Shown one piece after another: positions 4,978-47,999 of a DNA stretch of 64,000 nucleotides (the first letter of the stretch is position 1; the number at the start of each line of letters is the position of its first letter). The position numbers were made by a program, and so were the translations under genes. The stretch comes from Alphaproteobacteria bacterium (lineage in GTDB: Bacteria > Pseudomonadota > Alphaproteobacteria > JANQMY01). The notes under the pieces are model-generated. The model was given only the letters and a program-made list of their open reading frames with translations. It was not told where the DNA came from and made no database searches. Where the stretch lies: positions 1 to 64,000 of the forward strand of contig JANQPL010000003.1 of assembly GCA_028289425.1 (NCBI GenBank), in the 5' to 3' direction.

Positions 4978-5829
4978 ATGCAAAACCACATCGTTGATAC
5001 GCTGATCGAAGAGCGCTCGGGACGGTTCGGCAAGAACCCCGCGATTTGGTCCATGACCAAACTGGTCTTGTATCCGCTTTTGAAATATCGCCGGGCGGTC
5101 CGGCTGGCAGATCAGATCCGGCACATGGATGCTGAAGATGTGTTTGAATTCACGCGAGACCTTCTGCGCCTGAATGTGCAAGTTGCCGGTGCTGAAAACA
5201 TTCCGAAGGATGGTCGCTTCATCCTTGCGCCGAACCACCCCACCTTGGCGGACATGTTTCCCATCTATGATGTGCTGCGTTCCATCCGTCCGGACTTTAC
5301 ATTGATCGCCACGAAAGACGCGGTGCGGGTGGCACAGAACCTGATGGACCTGCTCATCCCGGTGGATGTAGATGCCGCAGCGCAAGACCGGCGCACGTCT
5401 CGCCAGGTGCTGCAGCGGGTGATGAAGACGTTCAAGGACGAACGGGCACTGATCATCTTTCCGTCGGGCGGGCTCGCCCGATTGCGGGACGGTCAGCTGC
5501 GCGAACAGCCCTGGCTTCCGACACCGATCAACCTGTCCCGGAAGTTCAATGCACCCATCCTGCCGCTGCACATTTCCGGGCAGAACTCGTGGCTCTACTA
5601 CATGTTCGGCAAGATCAGCCGGGAACTGCGCGACATGACCGTCTTTTACGAGATCCTCAACAAAGAACGCACAACCTACAAGCTCACCTTCGGGCCACTG
5701 ATCGACCCGGTGAGAATTCCCAACGAACCGCACACGGCGATCTCCAAATTGCAGGCCTATGTGGAGGATGTGTTGCCGTCTCTGCACCAGCCGCGCCCCA
5801 CCGGCAGCGCGGTTCTGTCGCCCTTCTAA
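4978..5829 (+). CDS. PlsC-like lysophospholipid acyltransferase family protein
   Basis: 283 residues from ATG 4978; an ATG nine bases upstream (4969) is also possible. The NHPTLAD sequence near residue 92 is the NHx4D acyltransferase motif, and IIFPSGGLAR corresponds to the FPEG substrate-binding motif with Ser-Gly in place of Glu-Gly. The enzyme should transfer an acyl chain to a lipid head such as lysophosphatidate or an ornithine-lipid precursor at the inner membrane. It follows the two glycosyltransferase genes by about 80 bp in the same direction, consistent with an envelope-lipid operon. The altered motif III makes the acceptor uncertain. Confidence 0.75.
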   Translation: MQNHIVDTLIEERSGRFGKNPAIWSMTKLVLYPLLKYRRAVRLADQIRHMDAEDVFEFTRDLLRLNVQVAGAENIPKDGRFILAPNHPTLADMFPIYDVLRSIRPDFTLIATKDAVRVAQNLMDLLIPVDVDAAAQDRRTSRQVLQRVMKTFKDERALIIFPSGGLARLRDGQLREQPWLPTPINLSRKFNAPILPLHISGQNSWLYYMFGKISRELRDMTVFYEILNKERTTYKLTFGPLIDPVRIPNEPHTAISKLQAYVEDVLPSLHQPRPTGSAVLSPF

Positions 5830-5881
5830 TTTCACCAGAAGACCTGTAGGGTCCTCGGTCGGATTTTGATCGGTGGACCCC

Positions 5882-6850
5882 ATGAGCCCCATGGCCCGCA
5901 GCCCCCGCGACTGGGTGCTGTTTTGCATTCTTGTGTTTCTGTACGGATCAGCGTTCATGTTCATTGAACTGAGCGTTGAAACAATCCCGCCATTGACGGT
6001 GGTGGCAAGCCGATTGGTGCTGGGCGCTGCTTTCGTCTATGGCTGGATGCGCTATCAAGGCCACAGGCTGCCGCCGCTTACCGACACAACCGCACCATAT
6101 GCGCGCCTGCCGGTCAGCCTCATCTGGCTGTACTTTTTCGTCTTGGCGATGGTTGGCAATGTGCTTCCTTTCTTTCTCATCTCTTGGGGCCAGCTTGCGA
6201 TCGAAAGCAGCTTGGCCGGCATTCTGATGGCCTTCATGCCGCTGGCGACCATGATGCTCGCCCATTTCTTCGTGCCCGGCGAACCGCTGACGCCCGCCAA
6301 GATCGCCGGCTTCGTCTTGGGCTTTTGCGGCGTCTTGGTTCTGATGGGACCAAGCGCGCTTGGTACACTGTCTTCTGAGGGCGCCCGCCTGGCGGCCCAA
6401 TTAGCCGTTCTCGGCGGGGCGTTTTGTTATGCGCTCAACGCCATCATCGCCCGCCATGCGCCACGTGTGCCCGCTATCGTCTCGTCGACAGGCATCCTTC
6501 TCATCGGCGCGGTGGTGAGTGTTCTGCTGGCACTCATCCTAGAGCGCCCCTGGACCATCGAAGTCAGCACAGGCGCCCTGCTTGCGGTCATCTTCCTGGG
6601 CATATTTACCACCGCGCTGGCAACCGTCGTCTACATGGAACTGGTTCAGACGGCGGGTCCAAGTTTCTTTGCGCTCACCAATTATCTGGTGCCGGTGCTC
6701 GCCGTGTTCTTAGGGGCGCTGGTACTGGGCGAAGTGCTGGACTGGCGCGCCTTTGCTGCCCTTGCCCTTGTGCTCTTGGGCATCTTCATCAGCCAAGCGC
6801 GCGTGACCCGCACGCTGATTGGTCAGATCTTCAGCTCTCCTTCCAAATAG
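5882..6850 (+). CDS. EamA/DMT-family permease
   Basis: 322 residues with ten hydrophobic helices in two EamA repeats, the usual size for drug/metabolite transporters. The start ATG at 5882 has GGTGGA just upstream; the GTG at 5873 is part of that sequence and is a less likely start. The second repeat contains the family-typical YMELVQTAGPSFFALTNYLVPVLAVFLG. The direction of transport and substrate cannot be read from sequence; most relatives export amino acids or other metabolites. The last 28 bp overlap the convergent phzF-like gene. Confidence 0.9.
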   Translation: MSPMARSPRDWVLFCILVFLYGSAFMFIELSVETIPPLTVVASRLVLGAAFVYGWMRYQGHRLPPLTDTTAPYARLPVSLIWLYFFVLAMVGNVLPFFLISWGQLAIESSLAGILMAFMPLATMMLAHFFVPGEPLTPAKIAGFVLGFCGVLVLMGPSALGTLSSEGARLAAQLAVLGGAFCYALNAIIARHAPRVPAIVSSTGILLIGAVVSVLLALILERPWTIEVSTGALLAVIFLGIFTTALATVVYMELVQTAGPSFFALTNYLVPVLAVFLGALVLGEVLDWRAFAALALVLLGIFISQARVTRTLIGQIFSSPSK

Positions 6851-7638
6851 GGGGTACACTGACCATAGAGCGTGACGCGCTCCCCCCGATGGACGCACCG
6901 TAGTTGACCTCCGCGCGGCGACAATTGCCGCGCCGCCAATTCTTTCTTCCCGAGGCGCTCTGCCCAATAGGGCGTCATGGCGCAATGGGCAGACCCCGTG
7001 ACCGGATCTTCCGGAACGCCCTTAGCGGGCGCAAAGAATCGGGACACGAAATCGACACCGCTGCCGGGCCGCCCCGGCGCCGTGACCATCATGCCCCAAA
7101 AATCGATTTGCTTGAGCGCGGGCCCAATGGCGCTGGTATAGGTGAGCCCTTCGATCTGCTCTTGATTTTCCAGGATCACCATGAGATTTGCGGAACCCCG
7201 CAATGCCACCGGCGCCACACCTAGAAGATCGGTAACCACCGCCATCGCCTTATCGTCTTCAAGCGGCGTTGACGGGATCGCCGGCAGATCCATCGACAAC
7301 CACCCGTCTTCTTCCCGAGACACCACCAGCGTGCCGCTGCGCGTTTCGAACGACACTTGGTCAAGCGACGGCACAAGTTCGTTAAACACCACAAAGGCAC
7401 TGGCCAACGTCGCGTGACCGCACAAATCCACTTCAACGCCGGGGGTAAACCAGCGCAGATCGTAGTGGCCGGCCGCCCCATCGGAGGCCGGCACAAAAAA
7501 AGCCGTTTCCGAAATGTTGTTTTCAGCGGCAATCTGCAGCATCAACTCATCTGCGATCCATTTCTCGAGCGGCACCACACCCGCCGGATTACCGCGAAAC
7601 AATTCATCCGCAAACGCATCGATTTGGAAAAACTTCAT
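6823..7638 (-). CDS. PhzF-family isomerase/epimerase
   Basis: 271 residues, ATG at 7638, one base after the TAA of the DUF427 gene, so the two are translationally linked. The protein shows the PhzF fold: FQIDAFAD...GNPAGVV at the N-terminus, NNISETAFFV with the catalytic Glu of the family, GHATLASA, and EDPVTGSAHC before the C-terminal half. PhzF relatives isomerise or epimerise small acids and amino-acid-like substrates. Nothing nearby suggests phenazine synthesis, so the role is probably metabolic or detoxifying. It is the last gene of a tetR-DUF427-phzF operon. Confidence 0.9.
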   Translation of the reverse strand: MKFFQIDAFADELFRGNPAGVVPLEKWIADELMLQIAAENNISETAFFVPASDGAAGHYDLRWFTPGVEVDLCGHATLASAFVVFNELVPSLDQVSFETRSGTLVVSREEDGWLSMDLPAIPSTPLEDDKAMAVVTDLLGVAPVALRGSANLMVILENQEQIEGLTYTSAIGPALKQIDFWGMMVTAPGRPGSGVDFVSRFFAPAKGVPEDPVTGSAHCAMTPYWAERLGKKELAARQLSPRGGQLRCVHRGERVTLYGQCTPYLEGELKI

Positions 7639-7639
7639 C

Positions 7640-8140
7640 TTACCAAAACTCGGTACCCGGCTCACCTTTGAACGGCCCCACAATGTCGGACGTAATCCAG
7701 CCACCATAAAACGAACCGGGCTGAGGGATAACTTTCTCACCGTCCACGAAACAAGCATCCATCATGGCCGGGTAGAACGCTACATAGTCCTTCATGGGCA
7801 CAAAAGCCGCCGAAGGATTGGGATAACTCCAGGCGGCATTTTGGGCGACTTTGTCGCCTACCACCACCGACCAATAGCGCGCTTCGCCCTTCCATTCACA
7901 AAAGCTGCGCCTGATCTCCTGCCGGAGGAATTCTTGCCGAATATCCGTGGGCGGAAGGTAATAACCGGGCGGGTGGCTGGTTTCCAAAACCCGAAAGGCC
8001 CCGGTTGTCTCCGCAATCACTTCGCCGCCAAACTCAATCCGAATAGGGCGGGTCGTCCGCTCGCAGATTGCCGGCCGCGGATAATCCCAAACGGACTCTT
8101 GGCCCGGCCCCGGCTCGATGCGCGCGGCCCGGCCGCTCAC
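7640..8140 (-). CDS. DUF427 domain protein
   Basis: 166 residues, starting with GTG at 8140 that overlaps the TGA of the upstream tetR gene (GTGA). The sequence contains the DUF427 features: VWDYPRP near the start, RIEFGGEVIAET, and the WSYPNPSAAF segment with aromatic and proline conservation. The function of the family is not established. The gene sits between a TetR regulator and a PhzF-like enzyme with no gaps, so the three products very likely act in one inducible process. Confidence 0.85.
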   Translation of the reverse strand: MSGRAARIEPGPGQESVWDYPRPAICERTTRPIRIEFGGEVIAETTGAFRVLETSHPPGYYLPPTDIRQEFLRQEIRRSFCEWKGEARYWSVVVGDKVAQNAAWSYPNPSAAFVPMKDYVAFYPAMMDACFVDGEKVIPQPGSFYGGWITSDIVGPFKGEPGTEFW

Positions 8141-8781
8141 GCATCATCCTTTTCCGTCAGCGCGCTGAGACCGTTCAGCAATAGAGTGGTCGCGAAGTCA
8201 GTCGCCTCTTCCACACTGGGGTCCTCCCGCAGCACCAAGCGATCGCTCATTTCAAAGGCGATCCCAATCATCGCAGCAGACAGATAATCAATATCCACTT
8301 TCGGCGCGATGCCCTCGGCCACCGCCTTTTCCAAATCAGCCTGCAGCTCGTCAAACCCGGCAATAATCTCGGGCGTATCCATGCGCACCCGCAAGGCGCC
8401 CGTGTTGCGCCGAATGATGCGGAAATTGCTCTGATCGTTCACCACATAATCGAAGAACACGAAGAACATTCCGCGCACCCATTCTTCGAAATTCTTCGCA
8501 CGAATACGTTCCGATCGCAGCCGCGGGCGCACCCGCAACGCATTCTCGTCCATAATGGCTTGGAACACTTCTTCCTTCGATTTGAAGTAATTGTAGAACG
8601 TGCCCGAGGCGAGCCCGGTTTTACGGATGATGTCGCGCACGGTGGTCTCGCCATAGCCGAGCTCGGCGAATACGTACCGGCCGGCTTCGATAATCGCGCG
8701 CCGGTTATTCGCTTTGGTTTGTTCCCGCTTGCCCGGCTTCTGGCGCGCTAAGGTATCGGTTGTTGATGAAGGATCAGCCAT
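8137..8781 (-). CDS. TetR/AcrR family transcriptional regulator
   Basis: 214 residues. The N-terminal part has the TetR helix-turn-helix: AIIEAGRYVFAELGYGETTVRDI, then KTGLASGTFYNYFKSKEEVF. The remainder is the variable ligand-binding domain. It is the first gene of an operon with DUF427 and phzF and is divergent from the thioesterase gene at 8892, so the 110-bp gap probably holds an operator controlling both directions. I found no convincing long palindrome there. The ligand is unknown; acyl-CoA or a related small molecule would fit the neighbours. Confidence 0.9.
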   Translation of the reverse strand: MADPSSTTDTLARQKPGKREQTKANNRRAIIEAGRYVFAELGYGETTVRDIIRKTGLASGTFYNYFKSKEEVFQAIMDENALRVRPRLRSERIRAKNFEEWVRGMFFVFFDYVVNDQSNFRIIRRNTGALRVRMDTPEIIAGFDELQADLEKAVAEGIAPKVDIDYLSAAMIGIAFEMSDRLVLREDPSVEEATDFATTLLLNGLSALTEKDDA

Positions 8782-8891
8782 AAATCTGTGTTACTTTCTT
8801 GTGGCAGAGTCGCGGCGCCACTGTACCCGTTCGGGACCCTGCGTCAACTTGTCCTCTGACGTGGCAGCGTTGCAAAAATTTCGGGTCAATC

Positions 8892-9365
8892 ATGGCGAAC
8901 CACCCTCTTCTCGATCAGATTCTCGCCCACAAAAGCGAAGTGATCGCCCGCGTGCCCCATGCGGCCGCCATGGGTATCGAATTGGTGGACGCCACCGAAG
9001 AAGGCGCGTGGATGAAGATCCCCTATGCCCCCCACCTGATCGGTAATCCAGAAACGGGTGTGGTGCATGGCGGCGTGGTGACCACATTGCTCGATCATGC
9101 GTCGGGCCTTGCGGTCATGTGCGCGCTGACGGAATTCATGTCGATTGCCACGCTGGACCTGCGCATCGACTATCACGCGCCCGCCACCCCCAAACGGGAC
9201 ATTATGTGCCACGCTTTCTGCTACAAGCGCACCAAGAACATCGCGTTTGTTCGGGGCAGCGCCTACCATGACACCCCCGACGACCCGATTGCCGGTTCTG
9301 TGGGCGCGTTCATGTTGGGGGCCAATCGTGCGCCCAGCACTTTCCAGACCGGAGCAATGTCATGA
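8892..9365 (+). CDS. PaaI-like hotdog thioesterase
   Basis: 157 residues from ATG 8892. The hotdog signature VVHGGVVTTLLDHASGLA lies in the first half, and TLDLRIDYHAPA corresponds to the central strand. Such enzymes hydrolyse acyl-CoA thioesters, often of aromatic or medium-chain acids, and work as dimers or tetramers in the cytoplasm. The start of the next hotdog gene overlaps its stop by four bases (ATGA), so the two are co-translated and could form a mixed oligomer. Confidence 0.88.
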   Translation: MANHPLLDQILAHKSEVIARVPHAAAMGIELVDATEEGAWMKIPYAPHLIGNPETGVVHGGVVTTLLDHASGLAVMCALTEFMSIATLDLRIDYHAPATPKRDIMCHAFCYKRTKNIAFVRGSAYHDTPDDPIAGSVGAFMLGANRAPSTFQTGAMS

Positions 9366-9805
9366 GCGCGTCCAAGACCGATCCGTCGCCCAATGAGGCA
9401 GGGCTGCACAAGCGCTTCACAAACATTCCGTATGTTGATTTTTTGGGTATTCGTGTGGAGCGGCGCGGCAGCGAGCTTACAACCATATTGCCGTTTAACG
9501 AAAAGCTGATCGGCAACCCCACCCTGCCGGCACTGCATGGCGGGGTCATCGGTGCTTTTTTGGAAACCTCGGCCCTGGCCCAAATCACCTGGGAAGATAC
9601 GCTCAACCGGCTGCCGAAAACGATCGACATCTCCATCGATTATCTGCGCTCTGGCCAGCCGCGCGACACCTATGCCCGGTCGATCATCGCGAAGCACGGA
9701 CGACGCGTTGCCAATGTGCGGGTTCATGCCTGGCAGGACGATATCAACCGGCCCATTGCCACCGCCCACGGACACTTTCTGTTGCCGCCGCCCGATGAAG
9801 AATAA
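9362..9805 (+). CDS. PaaI-like hotdog thioesterase, second of a tandem pair
   Basis: 147 residues, beginning in the ATGA overlap with the preceding thioesterase. The hotdog helix signature is ALHGGVIGAFLETSALA, with Glu where the upstream paralogue has Asp. The central strand is TIDISIDYLRSG. The two proteins share the fold but are clearly diverged, so this is not a recent duplication. A MATE exporter gene begins 21 bp downstream in the same direction. The substrate is unknown. Confidence 0.88.
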   Translation: MSASKTDPSPNEAGLHKRFTNIPYVDFLGIRVERRGSELTTILPFNEKLIGNPTLPALHGGVIGAFLETSALAQITWEDTLNRLPKTIDISIDYLRSGQPRDTYARSIIAKHGRRVANVRVHAWQDDINRPIATAHGHFLLPPPDEE

Positions 9806-9826
9806 CAGGGCACCCCAAAGCGGCCC

Positions 9827-11206
9827 ATGACGGAGCTTACCGACCAGCCTCAACGCGGCCGCCCGGCCGTGCGCTATCGGGACATTGTGCGCATCGCCTG
9901 GCCGATCATATTGGCCAATGCGGCTATCCCGTTGCTGGGGCTGGTGGATACGGCCGTCGTGGGCAATTTGGGGGACCCGATCTATCTGGGGGCCGTTGCG
10001 ATCGGCGCGACGATCTTCAATTTCATCTATTGGGGCTTCGGCTTTTTGCGCATGGCAACCACCGGTCTGACGGCGCAGGCCATGGGTGCCAAAAACCCGC
10101 GCGAAGTGGATGCCACCCTGTTTCGCGCAACCCTTGCCGGCGCCGCGCTGGGGGTGGGGTTCCTGGTGCTGCAATGGCCCATCGGTGCAACGGCGCTTTA
10201 TTTGATCGGCGGCAGCGAGCAAGTGCAGACGCTTGCCTGGTCTTACTTCACCATCCGCATTTGGGGCGCGCCGGCCATGTTCGCCACCATGGCGATTATG
10301 GGGTGGTTCATTGGTCAGGAAAAAACCCGCCTGGTACTGATCATTCAGCTGTTGCTCAACGGGCTGAACATCCTGCTGGATATTTGGTTCGTGATTGGAC
10401 TGGGGTGGGCCGCCGACGGTGTAGCGGCGGCGACCGCCATCGCCGAATGGACCGCTTTCGCGGCGGCCGTGGGATTGGTGCTGTTCGTGCGCCACCAACA
10501 GCATGGGGCCCATCCGGAGAAAGGCGCTACCCACATCCCGCCTTTGTCGGAAATCCTGGAACCGCGCGCGGTTCGGCGAACGGTGATGGTCAATTCGGAT
10601 GTGATGATCAGATCGTTTTGCTTGGTGATCGGCTTTACCTGGTTCACCGCCCAAGGCGCCAAGATGGGCGATATCATCCTCGCGGCTAACGCGGTGCTTA
10701 TGCAGTTCTTCTTTGTGTCCACCTATTTGGTGGACGGCATTGCCATCGCCACGGAGACGCTGGTTGGCAAATTCAAAGGAGCACGCGACCGGGGCGCCCT
10801 GCGCGAAACGGTTCAGCGCGCGTTTGTGATGGGCGGTGTCATTTCCGTCGTGATGTCCGGGCTGATTTTCGTGTTTGGCGTGCCTGGTATTCATGGGCTG
10901 ACCAATGTGGCCAGCGTGCAGGAAACAGCCACCACGTTCCTGCCCTACATGATTCTGATGCCCATGATCGGCGTTTGGTGTTTTGTGTTGGACGGTATTT
11001 TCATCGGCGCGACCCGCACGGCGGACATGCGCAACGCCATGTTGGTATCGATTGCGGTTTATATCGCGGCTTGGTTCGCATTGGCGCCGGCTTTCGGCAA
11101 TCACGGTCACTGGATTGCATTCCTGGGATTCTTTGCGATCCGCGGGATCACGCTGGGCATGCTCTATCCGGGACTTGAACGGGATACGGCTAATCCTCAT
11201 GCGTGA
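9827..11206 (+). CDS. MATE-family efflux transporter (DinF-like)
   Basis: 459 residues with twelve hydrophobic helices. The opening RIAWPIILANAAIPLLGLVDTAVVGNLG is the typical first helix and loop of DinF-like MATE proteins, and the motif recurs in the second half of the protein. MATE pumps expel cationic drugs or metabolites against Na+ or H+ flow across the inner membrane. It follows the two thioesterase genes closely, so it is probably in their operon. Its last ten bases overlap the end of the convergent pyrD. Confidence 0.9.
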   Translation: MTELTDQPQRGRPAVRYRDIVRIAWPIILANAAIPLLGLVDTAVVGNLGDPIYLGAVAIGATIFNFIYWGFGFLRMATTGLTAQAMGAKNPREVDATLFRATLAGAALGVGFLVLQWPIGATALYLIGGSEQVQTLAWSYFTIRIWGAPAMFATMAIMGWFIGQEKTRLVLIIQLLLNGLNILLDIWFVIGLGWAADGVAAATAIAEWTAFAAAVGLVLFVRHQQHGAHPEKGATHIPPLSEILEPRAVRRTVMVNSDVMIRSFCLVIGFTWFTAQGAKMGDIILAANAVLMQFFFVSTYLVDGIAIATETLVGKFKGARDRGALRETVQRAFVMGGVISVVMSGLIFVFGVPGIHGLTNVASVQETATTFLPYMILMPMIGVWCFVLDGIFIGATRTADMRNAMLVSIAVYIAAWFALAPAFGNHGHWIAFLGFFAIRGITLGMLYPGLERDTANPHA

Positions 11207-44806: not shown

Positions 44807-45301
44807 ATGACCAACATGCGCTGTTTTTCTATAGCGCGGCTTATTGCGGCGCTGCTTCTGGTGCCACCACTCACCCACGGCACCCTAATTGCCGTGATCG
44901 CCGTGCCGATCATCGGGTTTCAAGCGGCAGTGGGGACCATGGAGGACGCGGGCATCCTGATTGTGTCGATCACTTACCTTGTCGGCATGATTGCCTTGCC
45001 AACCACCTTCATCGGTGTGGGGACCATACTGGCCCCCATGTATTACCTTCAAGCCAAACGGCTTGACATCTATTCGGAAGCAACGCTTGCAGCGTTCGGT
45101 CTGGTGGGCGTTCCTATTGCCCTCGCGATCAGCGGACTTGTGATAACCGCTATTTCTACCGGCAGCTATTCACTTACCGACTATTTGGGAAGCATGGCTG
45201 TCATGATTGGCGTCTTCTGGCCATTTGGCGTGATCTATGCGCTGGTTGCCACGGCCTACTTCATTTGGATCACGCGGCCGGCCCCTGCCCTCACCCCCTA
45301 G
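44807..45301 (+). CDS. small membrane protein of unknown function
   Basis: 164 residues from ATG 44807; ATG 44816 is equally possible. Four or five hydrophobic helices fill most of the sequence (LIAVIAVPIIGFQAAVG, ILIVSITYLVGMIALP, LAAFGLVGVPIALAISG, MAVMIGVFWPFGVIYALVATAYF). No family is recognised. Its stop codon lies inside a short sequence that also forms the end of the gene at 46835, so its C-terminus may have been created by a rearrangement. Confidence 0.6.
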   Translation: MTNMRCFSIARLIAALLLVPPLTHGTLIAVIAVPIIGFQAAVGTMEDAGILIVSITYLVGMIALPTTFIGVGTILAPMYYLQAKRLDIYSEATLAAFGLVGVPIALAISGLVITAISTGSYSLTDYLGSMAVMIGVFWPFGVIYALVATAYFIWITRPAPALTP

Positions 45302-45413
45302 ACCGCCCCACCACAGCGACCAACCCGTCCAGGCACAATATGGCCAACCGGCCATCATCTCTCACCAGCGCAATCCAAATTTGCCGGCCTCTTTTTTGGG
45401 CAGGTGAAATGTC
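45291..45413 (-). pseudogene. remnant of a gene end related to the 46835-47308 gene
   Basis: On the minus strand this open stretch ends in the residues LVAVVGRSRG and a stop, the same ten residues and stop position as the membrane protein gene at 46835-47308, with synonymous codon differences. DNA similarity covers about 60 bp (45295-45358 against 46839-46894) with a small gap. Nothing further upstream in this frame resembles that protein, so it is a leftover 3-prime end. It borders the tyrosinase genes. Confidence 0.55.
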
Positions 45414-45477: not shown

Positions 45478-46269
45478 ATGACTGGCTCGATGGTTTATCG
45501 CCTTAGTGTCGGTGAAGTGACGGCGCCTCACATGGCGACCTACATACAAGCGCTGTCCGAAATTCAAGCGATCTCCGATGATCGTGGTTACAACCATGTC
45601 GCAGGATTTCACGGCGCACCCAACTTTTATTGCTGGCATCATCAAAACAACGCAAACACCGATTTGCAGGCGCGCCTTTTCCTTCCTTGGCATCGAGCAT
45701 ATCTGTGGTGGCTGGAACAGCGCTTGCGAGACCGATTGGAAAATGCGGCGTTGCCTTGGTGGGACTGGACTCTGGTCAGAGATGTCCCAGCGATTTACGA
45801 CGACGACACGATAGGAGGACGGCGAAATCCTCTCGCTTCGTCGACAATAATTCTGCCGACCGTGAATCCGCCGATCAACAGAGAGACTGTCCGCGCCCCA
45901 GGCAGCAATCCTTTTGTCCGGTTGCCGAGAAGGCGCGAAGTAGAAAGAGTACTCGCCCAGTCAGATTGGGCGTCGTTCAGTGATTTAATGGAAAGTCTGC
46001 ATGATCGAGTTCACGTCTGGGTTGGCGGAGATATGGCCAGTGTCGGTACAGCGGCATTCGACCCTATCTTTTTTGCCCATCATTGTATGATCGACCGGAT
46101 TTGGTACTTGTGGCAGGTAAGGCACGGCAATGGAGGGGTTCCTAATGCTCTGTTGGATCTCGAGCTCATCCCGTTTGGACGTCGTGTCAAGGACGTGCTG
46201 GATGTTCAAACACTAGGGTACGAATATGCTGTAGACTCGATGGAGGTACCTGATGCCGATTCACCATAG
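45478..46269 (+). CDS. tyrosinase copper-binding catalytic domain protein
   Basis: 263 residues from ATG 45478 with an AGGGGA site; ATG 45409 is an upstream alternative. The type-3 copper site is complete: first copper ligands in VAGFHGAP, CWHH and FLPWHRAYLWWLEQ; second copper ligands in LHDRVHVWVGGDM and FDPIFFAHHCMIDRIW. It should oxidise phenols to o-quinones. The C-terminal domain normally fused to this enzyme class is encoded by the next, overlapping gene. No secretion signal is visible. The region looks lower in GC than its neighbours and is flanked by a duplicated gene end, suggesting insertion. Confidence 0.9.
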   Translation: MTGSMVYRLSVGEVTAPHMATYIQALSEIQAISDDRGYNHVAGFHGAPNFYCWHHQNNANTDLQARLFLPWHRAYLWWLEQRLRDRLENAALPWWDWTLVRDVPAIYDDDTIGGRRNPLASSTIILPTVNPPINRETVRAPGSNPFVRLPRRREVERVLAQSDWASFSDLMESLHDRVHVWVGGDMASVGTAAFDPIFFAHHCMIDRIWYLWQVRHGNGGVPNALLDLELIPFGRRVKDVLDVQTLGYEYAVDSMEVPDADSP

Positions 46270-46717
46270 GTTCGAGAAGCGTGTGTTCGGCCCAATCGCG
46301 ACACCGACCGATTTGGGATTTAAGCGCGCAGATTTAGAAATCTTCGGCATTCGCCACGCATTTGGTTCGTACACTGCTCTGGTTTTTCTCAATAATCCTG
46401 ATGTGGACTCTGGGGGCGCCTCTAAGCGCTCCCGTGGATACGCCGGCACATTTTCGATATTCGGTCACGGTGGTTGCCTTGGCGACGCCGGTCACTGTGA
46501 TGTGGAGAACACCCGCCGCCGGTTTGATGACAGACCGAGCCACCCGCTAACTCCCGGGTTTCGACGACTGATCATTACTAAACCACTGCGAAAGACATGT
46601 CGAAAGTCCGACGATCTGACCATTACAATCGTGGCCTGCAGCGCAACCGATGAAAATGCGGAACAAGCCAAGCGACTCATAGACATTGGTGGCCTTCAGA
46701 TTTCTACTTTTCGCTAA
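46253..46717 (+). CDS. tyrosinase C-terminal domain as a separate protein
   Basis: 154 residues. Its ATG lies 17 bp inside the end of the tyrosinase gene in another frame. A perfect GGAGGT site, five bases before the ATG and within the tyrosinase coding sequence, supports separate translation. YTALVFLNNPDVDSG, GYAGTFSIFGHGGCLGDAGHCDV and HPLTPGFRRLIITKPLR resemble the beta-rich C-terminal domain that follows the catalytic domain in long bacterial tyrosinases. It is probably a partner or caddie subunit that covers or supplies the copper site. A frameshift of a once-fused gene is the other reading. Confidence 0.75.
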   Translation: MPIHHRFEKRVFGPIATPTDLGFKRADLEIFGIRHAFGSYTALVFLNNPDVDSGGASKRSRGYAGTFSIFGHGGCLGDAGHCDVENTRRRFDDRPSHPLTPGFRRLIITKPLRKTCRKSDDLTITIVACSATDENAEQAKRLIDIGGLQISTFR

Positions 46718-46834: not shown

Positions 46835-47308
46835 TTATCCCCTAGATCGCCCCACCACGGCGACCAGCCAAAACACAAATGCACCGGCCATGATCGGCAC
46901 CGCCATGATGGCGGCTGCGGGTGCGATTTCCGGCAACTGATCCGCTGTCGGAATAATCGGCCCAGAGACCGCCAGCGCAGCCGCGAGTGCCGCCACGGCC
47001 GCGCCGAACAGCAGATACGCAAACAGCCCATCCAACCGCAACAGGACCAATAGCCGGTCATAGATCAGCAGCGGGACCAGCACCATGGCCATGAATAAGG
47101 CGGACAGCACACCCGCCACGACGATTGTCTGCGCCAGGGTGGCGTCGCCCGCCATGATCGCATCCGCGACCCCCCGGTCGAAGGCGACAAACAACACGAT
47201 GATGGAGACCACGGCTTTCACCGCATCCATCACCGCCGGCATGAAGGGCACCGCGATTGCGGCGATCGTTACGCCCCACATAATGTAGCCAAGAACCCAA
47301 CGCCCCAT
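46835..47308 (-). CDS. small membrane protein of unknown function
   Basis: 157 residues with four to five hydrophobic helices (IMWGVTIAAIAVPFMPAV, AVVSIIVLFVAF, VVAGVLSALFMAMVLVPLLI, AYLLFGAAVAALAAALAVSG, AIMAVPIMAGAFVFWLVAVV). No family is recognised. It is unlike the protein at 44807 apart from the general membrane character. The last ten residues and stop recur at 45291-45323 on the same strand, on the other side of the tyrosinase genes. Confidence 0.65.
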   Translation of the reverse strand: MGRWVLGYIMWGVTIAAIAVPFMPAVMDAVKAVVSIIVLFVAFDRGVADAIMAGDATLAQTIVVAGVLSALFMAMVLVPLLIYDRLLVLLRLDGLFAYLLFGAAVAALAAALAVSGPIIPTADQLPEIAPAAAIMAVPIMAGAFVFWLVAVVGRSRG

Positions 47309-47492
47309 ATCGACCCCTCACTTGCGGTCCAAGCGGCGCCACACTAACACCGCGTTAACCATACGACCACAATTTGGTAAACTGCTTAAGACAGAGCCCC
47401 GCACCCATGCTAGTCTGTTCCAAAATGAAACAGGGGAACAGGACGCTGCCCACCGCAGCGCCCCTTGAAGAAGAGCAAAAGTGGGGTTTGTT

Positions 47493-47999
47493 ATGCGTAA
47501 TTTGCTCATCGTGGCAGCGATGGCGTTTGCCGTCACTGCCTCTCAAGCGGCAACGACGCCGCTTATCGAAGCTAAAAATGATGTGGCCAAAGTGATCGGC
47601 GCGGCAGCCCCTTGCCGGGGCGGTGACGCCTCAACACGGCGGATGCACATTGTGGCTTTTGACCGCTGGTCCATCCAACTTCGGGCGCAAGATTCCATCC
47701 GAGGCTACGTTACCGACGAGGTCACGTACAAGGCCGATATGCGGCGTCTTTTCGTGGCGAAATATTATCCGCGGTCGGAGCGTCCCAGTGAACCGACCCC
47801 GCATGTGGTGCTGAATTGCAGGCAAGTGAAGTGTTTTTACAAGTTCCGCGAGGGGCTGCGCCCCGGCCAGCGGCGCCAAGAACGGTCTTCCATGAACATC
47901 ACCCTCTGCAGCGGCGAACAGGGCCGGCCCGATCCGGCGCTCACGCAGCGCTTGTCCCTGGCGCTTAACAATCTCATTCAGGTAGCGCGGCTGCGCTAG
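47493..47999 (+). CDS. secreted protein of unknown function
   Basis: 168 residues from ATG 47493; the GTG at 47481 is part of the upstream purine-rich stretch. A signal peptide (NLLIVAAMAFAVTASQAA) covers the first 20 residues. The mature protein has four cysteines (PCRGGD, LNCRQVKCFY, LCSGEQ) that could form two disulfides in the periplasm. I do not recognise the family. Confidence 0.65.
   Translation: MRNLLIVAAMAFAVTASQAATTPLIEAKNDVAKVIGAAAPCRGGDASTRRMHIVAFDRWSIQLRAQDSIRGYVTDEVTYKADMRRLFVAKYYPRSERPSEPTPHVVLNCRQVKCFYKFREGLRPGQRRQERSSMNITLCSGEQGRPDPALTQRLSLALNNLIQVARLR

Follow-up and report, generated by a model that had tools for sequence, protein, structure and literature searches.

A two-gene tyrosinase of Alphaproteobacteria and Thermoleophilia with a separately encoded C-terminal domain and a probably coupled gene junction

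In this study, we analyzed a stretch of 64,000 nucleotides from an Alphaproteobacteria bacterium (the window; contig JANQPL010000003.1 of assembly GCA_028289425.1, positions 1 to 64,000 of the forward strand) and identified a tyrosinase encoded by two overlapping genes, one for the catalytic chain and one for a separate C-terminal domain (CTD). The same two-gene order, catalytic gene followed by CTD gene, was found at 20 other loci in Alphaproteobacteria and in Thermoleophilia (Actinomycetota), mostly in distant genomes. The anatomy and conservation of the pair are established, as are the coding constraint on both genes and the remote fold relationship of the CTD to known tyrosinase C-terminal domains. 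We consider it very probable that the pair encodes a two-subunit tyrosinase made by coupled translation. The original prediction of two coupled subunits rather than a frameshifted fusion is strongly supported by the 21 split loci, their varied spacings, and the Shine-Dalgarno (SD) site at the junction.

The catalytic reading frame closes with a TAG at 46267-46269, and the CTD reading frame, which ends at 46717, opens with an ATG at 46253 in the +1 frame relative to the catalytic gene (Table 1). After a TAG at 46232-46234, this ATG is the first ATG, GTG, or TTG in the CTD frame, and five nucleotides (ACCTG) lie between it and GGAGGT. The stop, the start, the 17-bp overlap, and the distance of GGAGGT from the ATG all check against the sequence as originally predicted. 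The catalytic gene most likely starts at ATG 45478, and not at the far-upstream TTG given in a mechanical list of open reading frames, because the relatives L003, L012, and L027 (L numbers denote loci) begin with MAGSM or MTGSM.

Table 1 Features of the two-gene tyrosinase locus, in window positions (aa, amino acids)
Feature	Position	Strand	Description and basis
Catalytic tyrosinase subunit	45478..46269	+	263 aa, PF00264; start chosen from homologues L003, L012, L027
CTD subunit (separate C-terminal domain, probably lid-type)	46253..46717	+	154 aa; homologous to the C-terminal domain found in fused bacterial tyrosinases; beta-rich predicted fold
Shine-Dalgarno site GGAGGT, within the catalytic gene	46242..46247	+	Sequence and duplex energy
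Out-of-frame overlap of catalytic and CTD genes, 17 bp	46253..46269	+	Sequence
CTD motif F-G-H-G-G-C-L-G-D-A-G-H-C, residues 70-82	46460..46498	+	Homologue alignment; candidate copper-handling site

Relatives were sought at class level, in about 1,960 genome searches, and in one contig scan that used the CTD as query; a profile widened the set to Thermoleophilia, the class of L011. They come mostly from draft metagenome-assembled genomes (MAGs). When the catalytic and C-terminal models were placed on the open reading frames, nearly all of the close relatives proved to be split. In Alphaproteobacteria, the split loci are L003 (a Rhodobacteraceae MAG), L012 (a Parvularcula MAG), and L004 (an alphaproteobacterial MAG); in Thermoleophilia, they are L011 and L014 (Solirubrobacterales MAGs) and 14 further loci (L025-L038), to which L053 is added. 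The CTD domain was present in 17 of the 399 Thermoleophilia genomes sampled and was nearly always split, and the split form occurred in only 3 of 385 genomes of the window's own class, the window's included. A viral contig scan with the CTD gave no match, and the weak matches L007 and L008 were discarded as spurious.

The junctions of 20 split loci, the window's included, were compared, the 21st locus (L053) having been established separately. The spacing between the two genes ranges from -17 to +14 bp and is never in frame; classical ATGA or TGATG overlaps are common among the junctions. SD-like pairing is enriched at these junctions, with a median of -6.25 kcal/mol as against -2.1 kcal/mol at internal out-of-frame starts of the same catalytic genes (p ~1e-10); the CTD start codons were picked by position and SD, which biases the comparison somewhat toward the junctions, and many loci offer one candidate only. 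Overlaps or short gaps with an SD site at the junction are the pattern of coupled gene pairs. The window's own site pairs with the anti-SD sequence at -10.6 kcal/mol, making it the second strongest junction. No internal out-of-frame start codon, among 207 in the 20 homologous catalytic genes, reaches this strength. GGAGGT followed after 4-9 nucleotides by ATG occurs only three times on both strands of the window. Of the features of the junction, relatives keep the close spacing and the SD-like sequence, whereas the 17-bp overlap and the perfect GGAGGT are specific to the window's genome. As far as sequence comparison goes, the junctions support coupled translation of two proteins and exclude a base-calling error or an obligatory frameshift.

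The catalytic protein belongs to the tyrosinase/type-3 copper family, matching PF00264 with an E value of 8e-35 and 121.5 bits (curated cut-off 22.6). Its copper ligands, H45, H54, and H72 at CuA and H175, H179, and H201/H202 at CuB, make up the full set of six histidines and are invariant in 20 homologues. Its monophenolase and diphenolase activities are putative. The C-x-H signature at CuA (C52-x-H54 in the window) is kept in 20 of 20 catalytic chains. As a thioether bridge at that position is reported for all biochemically characterized bacterial tyrosinases with a C-terminal domain (PMC11608171), the catalytic chain looks like the type that expects a lid, although here the lid is encoded separately. 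No signal peptide was recognizable by eye on this subunit. Its nearest relatives in the PDB are molluscan hemocyanin units and the Bacillus tyrosinase.

The window CTD has no Pfam or NCBIfam match; its counterpart in fused bacterial tyrosinases is their C-terminal part, with which it shares 27-33% identity. Searches of PDB sequences with single CTDs or small profiles gave no match, and a 20-row CTD profile gave only a weak one, to tomato polyphenol oxidase (PPO; E 0.06). The plant PPO1_KFDV model likewise matched 4 of 20 family members weakly. The AlphaFold model of the CTD (pLDDT 84.8) is beta-rich, and its best PDB matches in Foldseek were 4z13 (latent aurone synthase) and 6elt (the isolated apple PPO C-terminal domain), both C-terminal domains of plant latent PPOs, and 7xio (Ralstonia tyrosinase, TYR), with a probability of 1.00, E values of ~5e-4 to 1e-3, and TM scores of ~0.5, which places the model in the PPO C-terminal fold. 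Taken with the fused homologues, this comparison backs the earlier assignment of the second gene to a C-terminal domain and supports the view that the CTD is a lid-type domain, a predicted remote fold relative of PPO C-terminal domains. Four residues, C75, G77, H81, and C82 (C-x-G-x3-H-C), are invariant in 20 of 20 split CTDs, usually within FGHGGCxGDxGHC, and this Cys/His motif may handle copper.

Both genes are under purifying selection, judging from pairwise codon comparisons: dN is well below dS in each, with w between 0.18 and 0.40 where dS could be estimated, the other pairs being saturated at synonymous sites. The catalytic and CTD protein distances correlate across 19 genomes in a mirror-tree analysis (r 0.82, Mantel p 0.0005). 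The split enzymes make up a single group (84/91) in the IQ-TREE phylogeny built from the catalytic domains; its one fused member is L024, and the split or fused state requires 2 changes on the tree compared with 7.9 in shuffles. This fused gene (L024, 619-1908) and a split pair (L014, 4150-5447), with the same domain order, are found in one Solirubrobacteraceae MAG (G746). As L024 is nested in the split group and shares its genome with a split pair, the two forms seem to interconvert, and its fusion ties the CTD protein to the catalytic protein as a Rosetta-stone link. The long fused enzymes (those of rhizobia and related ones) and the short fused L019 and L039 fall in separate starred groups. 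The latter two (1435-2703 on the minus strand and ~517-1749, respectively; ~410-422 aa) carry ILGHGxCPGxxGHC and represent a third separate lineage with the same motif.

Three architectures of bacterial tyrosinases have been reviewed: with an upstream caddie, with a fused C-terminal extension, or with neither (PMC9454253). The window's arrangement is none of these but a fourth, in which a lid of the fused type is encoded separately, downstream, and in close coupling. The Streptomyces caddie aside, we found no account of a C-terminal domain with a gene of its own in the open-access library searched, from which many subscription papers are missing, and the arrangement is apparently undescribed so far. 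The fused zymogen tyrosinases (such as those of Verrucomicrobium spinosum, Ralstonia, and Burkholderia thailandensis) and the plant latent PPOs (PF12143 KFDV) resemble the window pair in that their catalytic domain precedes a beta-rich C-terminal domain whose predicted fold is similar, and in the C-x-H thioether signature. They differ in that the window CTD has a gene to itself, in a different frame and with a start codon and SD site of its own, and at none of the 21 loci is the lid part of the same polypeptide; the two parts of the window enzyme are separable without proteolysis. In addition, the plant segment aligned with C-x-G-x3-H-C is without the cysteines. The C-terminal domain of apple MdPPO1 (6elt, 6elv) folds alone when isolated, and 6elt is among the best fold matches of the CTD, but the apple domain was separated by self-cleavage or cloning, whereas the window CTD is naturally a separate gene. 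A homologous CTD with a CxGxxGHC motif is also present in the long fused tyrosinases L009 and L010, from Rhizobium/Mesorhizobium plasmids, and in their relatives L005, L006, L018, and L020; these enzymes differ in being single chains of ~600-670 aa, and their catalytic domains form a starred branch apart in the tree. On the two plasmids, the fused gene (L009, 3435-5432; L010, 3432-5432) lies between a multicopper oxidase gene, with a 14-bp overlap, and genes for a LodA/GoxA CTQ-oxidase and an FAD oxidoreductase, a common oxidase cluster.

We infer co-transcription, a degree of translational coupling, complex formation, and a lid or chaperone function for the CTD, and we propose the following mechanism by analogy with the latency of fused enzymes (PMC9454253, PMC10526336) and with copper delivery and capping by the caddie (PMC9454253). 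A single mRNA would carry the type-3 copper catalytic gene and then the separate gene for the lid, a domain that in plant enzymes, molluscan hemocyanins, and fused bacterial tyrosinases belongs to the same chain, and ribosomes at or near the end of the former would restart at the GGAGGT/ATG within the overlap, so that the two proteins would be made next to each other and in matched amounts. The lid would bind the catalytic subunit, still nascent or in its apo form, while the two proteins emerge from the ribosome, aid copper loading through its invariant motif, and hold the site shut until it dissociates, which would activate the enzyme without proteolysis. A removable lid, a copper chaperone, or both is the role that we favour, and we put it at about an even chance. 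Promoter and terminator scans at the locus returned nothing informative.

Several observations weigh against this mechanism. RNA folding at the junction is ordinary, with no occluding structure that would force coupling (z 0.94), so that initiation at GGAGGT may be independent. The fold similarity of the CTD is modest (TM ~0.5, root-mean-square deviation (rmsd) ~5 A), and a disulfide, zinc, or structural role also fits its Cys/His motif. Finally, the naturally fused L024, as modelled by AlphaFold (pTM 0.83), matches hemocyanin/PPO over both domains in order with an rmsd of ~20 A and a TM of ~0.48; the known pose of the lid over the active site is thus not reproduced, which speaks against capping or at least lends it no support.

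It is also conceivable, though rather unlikely, that the CTD stays bound permanently as a structural part of an obligate heterodimer, much as the beta-sandwich of molluscan hemocyanin is fixed, and is not a removable lid or chaperone. Both the catalytic chain and the L024 model have hemocyanin units among their closest solved relatives, and the correlated divergence of the two proteins fits this reading as well. However, for fused enzymes from bacteria, plants, and fungi, the role documented for the C-terminal domain is latency (PMC9454253, PMC11608171, PMC10526336), and separate genes ease dissociation.

Membership of the CTD in the MelC1 caddie family would follow the same logic, a small separate partner in one gene pair, and the Streptomyces MelC1/MelC2 system is likewise a two-gene operon whose small beta-rich partner loads copper and caps the site (PMC9454253). 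We give this reading very little credence. The caddie gene lies upstream, its product belongs to PF06236, and it has a role in Tat export in some cases (PMC9454253); the CTD is of a different family without a recognizable signal peptide, its gene is downstream at 21 of 21 loci, and PF06236 matches 0 of 20 CTDs. PF06236 was also silent in the genome search, as were the controls of that search. The best folds are PPO C-terminal domains, with no caddie in the top 50 Foldseek matches. Moreover, the Streptomyces tyrosinases are without the Cys-His link (PMC10526336), whose C-x-H signature the window-type catalytic chains keep.

A programmed +1 frameshift could in principle act where the two window reading frames overlap (46235-46269) and yield a fused enzyme, either alone or alongside the separate products, but it is highly improbable. 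A stop followed by a gap, with no overlap, is found in 6 of 20 relatives, and a start codon is present at each junction, mostly with an SD-like site belonging to that junction. In the close pair L003 and L012, the spacers of 13 and 14 bp differ by one base, so that the two loci differ in relative frame; an obligatory frameshift fusion is thereby excluded. The split would have been undermined by close relatives that are fused and differ by a single base at this point; the opposite was found, as L027, L003, L012, and 17 others are all split, with varied spacings and both frame offsets. That a sequencing or assembly indel or a pseudogene broke a fused tyrosinase is next to impossible even though fused homologues exist, since 21 loci in many genomes are split at the same domain boundary, which makes an assembly error untenable, both parts are under purifying selection, the in-frame stop at 46232 is accompanied by an SD site and an ATG, and all fused enzymes except L024 fall outside the split group. 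We therefore rejected the sequencing error, pseudogene, and frameshift readings on comparative grounds.

The neighbouring genes of the split loci differ from one locus to another and have no common function. In L013 (a Rhodobacteraceae MAG, 5493-10110), the split pair is directly followed by genes for a 541-aa protein without a Pfam family, a DyP-peroxidase-like protein, and an Exo_endo_phos protein, spaced closely enough for one operon. In the window, a 31-nucleotide direct repeat flanks the tyrosinase pair (45295-45325 and 46839-46869; 90% identical, 1,544 bp apart), the right copy being the 3′ end of a membrane-protein gene at 46835-47308 on the minus strand. The G+C content is 0.51-0.55 across the pair and ~0.6 further out. 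The same-genus genome G001 has no CTD match; it matches window positions 46835-47743 (L059, G001:C107:2-914), starting exactly at 46835, where its contig ends. The flanking repeat, the lower G+C, and the missing CTD match in G001 make it possible that the pair is a horizontally acquired cassette.

The split enzymes may represent, with odds that we regard as balanced, a fourth tyrosinase architecture, in which a dedicated downstream lid and copper-loading subunit would keep a cytoplasmic tyrosinase latent until its release by dissociation without proteolysis, in two phyla and interconvertible with the fused form. The CTD family lies outside the coverage of Pfam and NCBIfam, and the two-gene form links the fused, plant-like design with the caddie design of Streptomyces. 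Work on how the C-terminal domain controls copper loading and latency usually relies on a fused chain that needs cleavage, whereas the parts of a natural two-gene form can be expressed, mixed, and titrated separately. Co-expression of the two genes would also be a simple way to obtain the enzyme, active or latent, for use in melanin and catechol chemistry.
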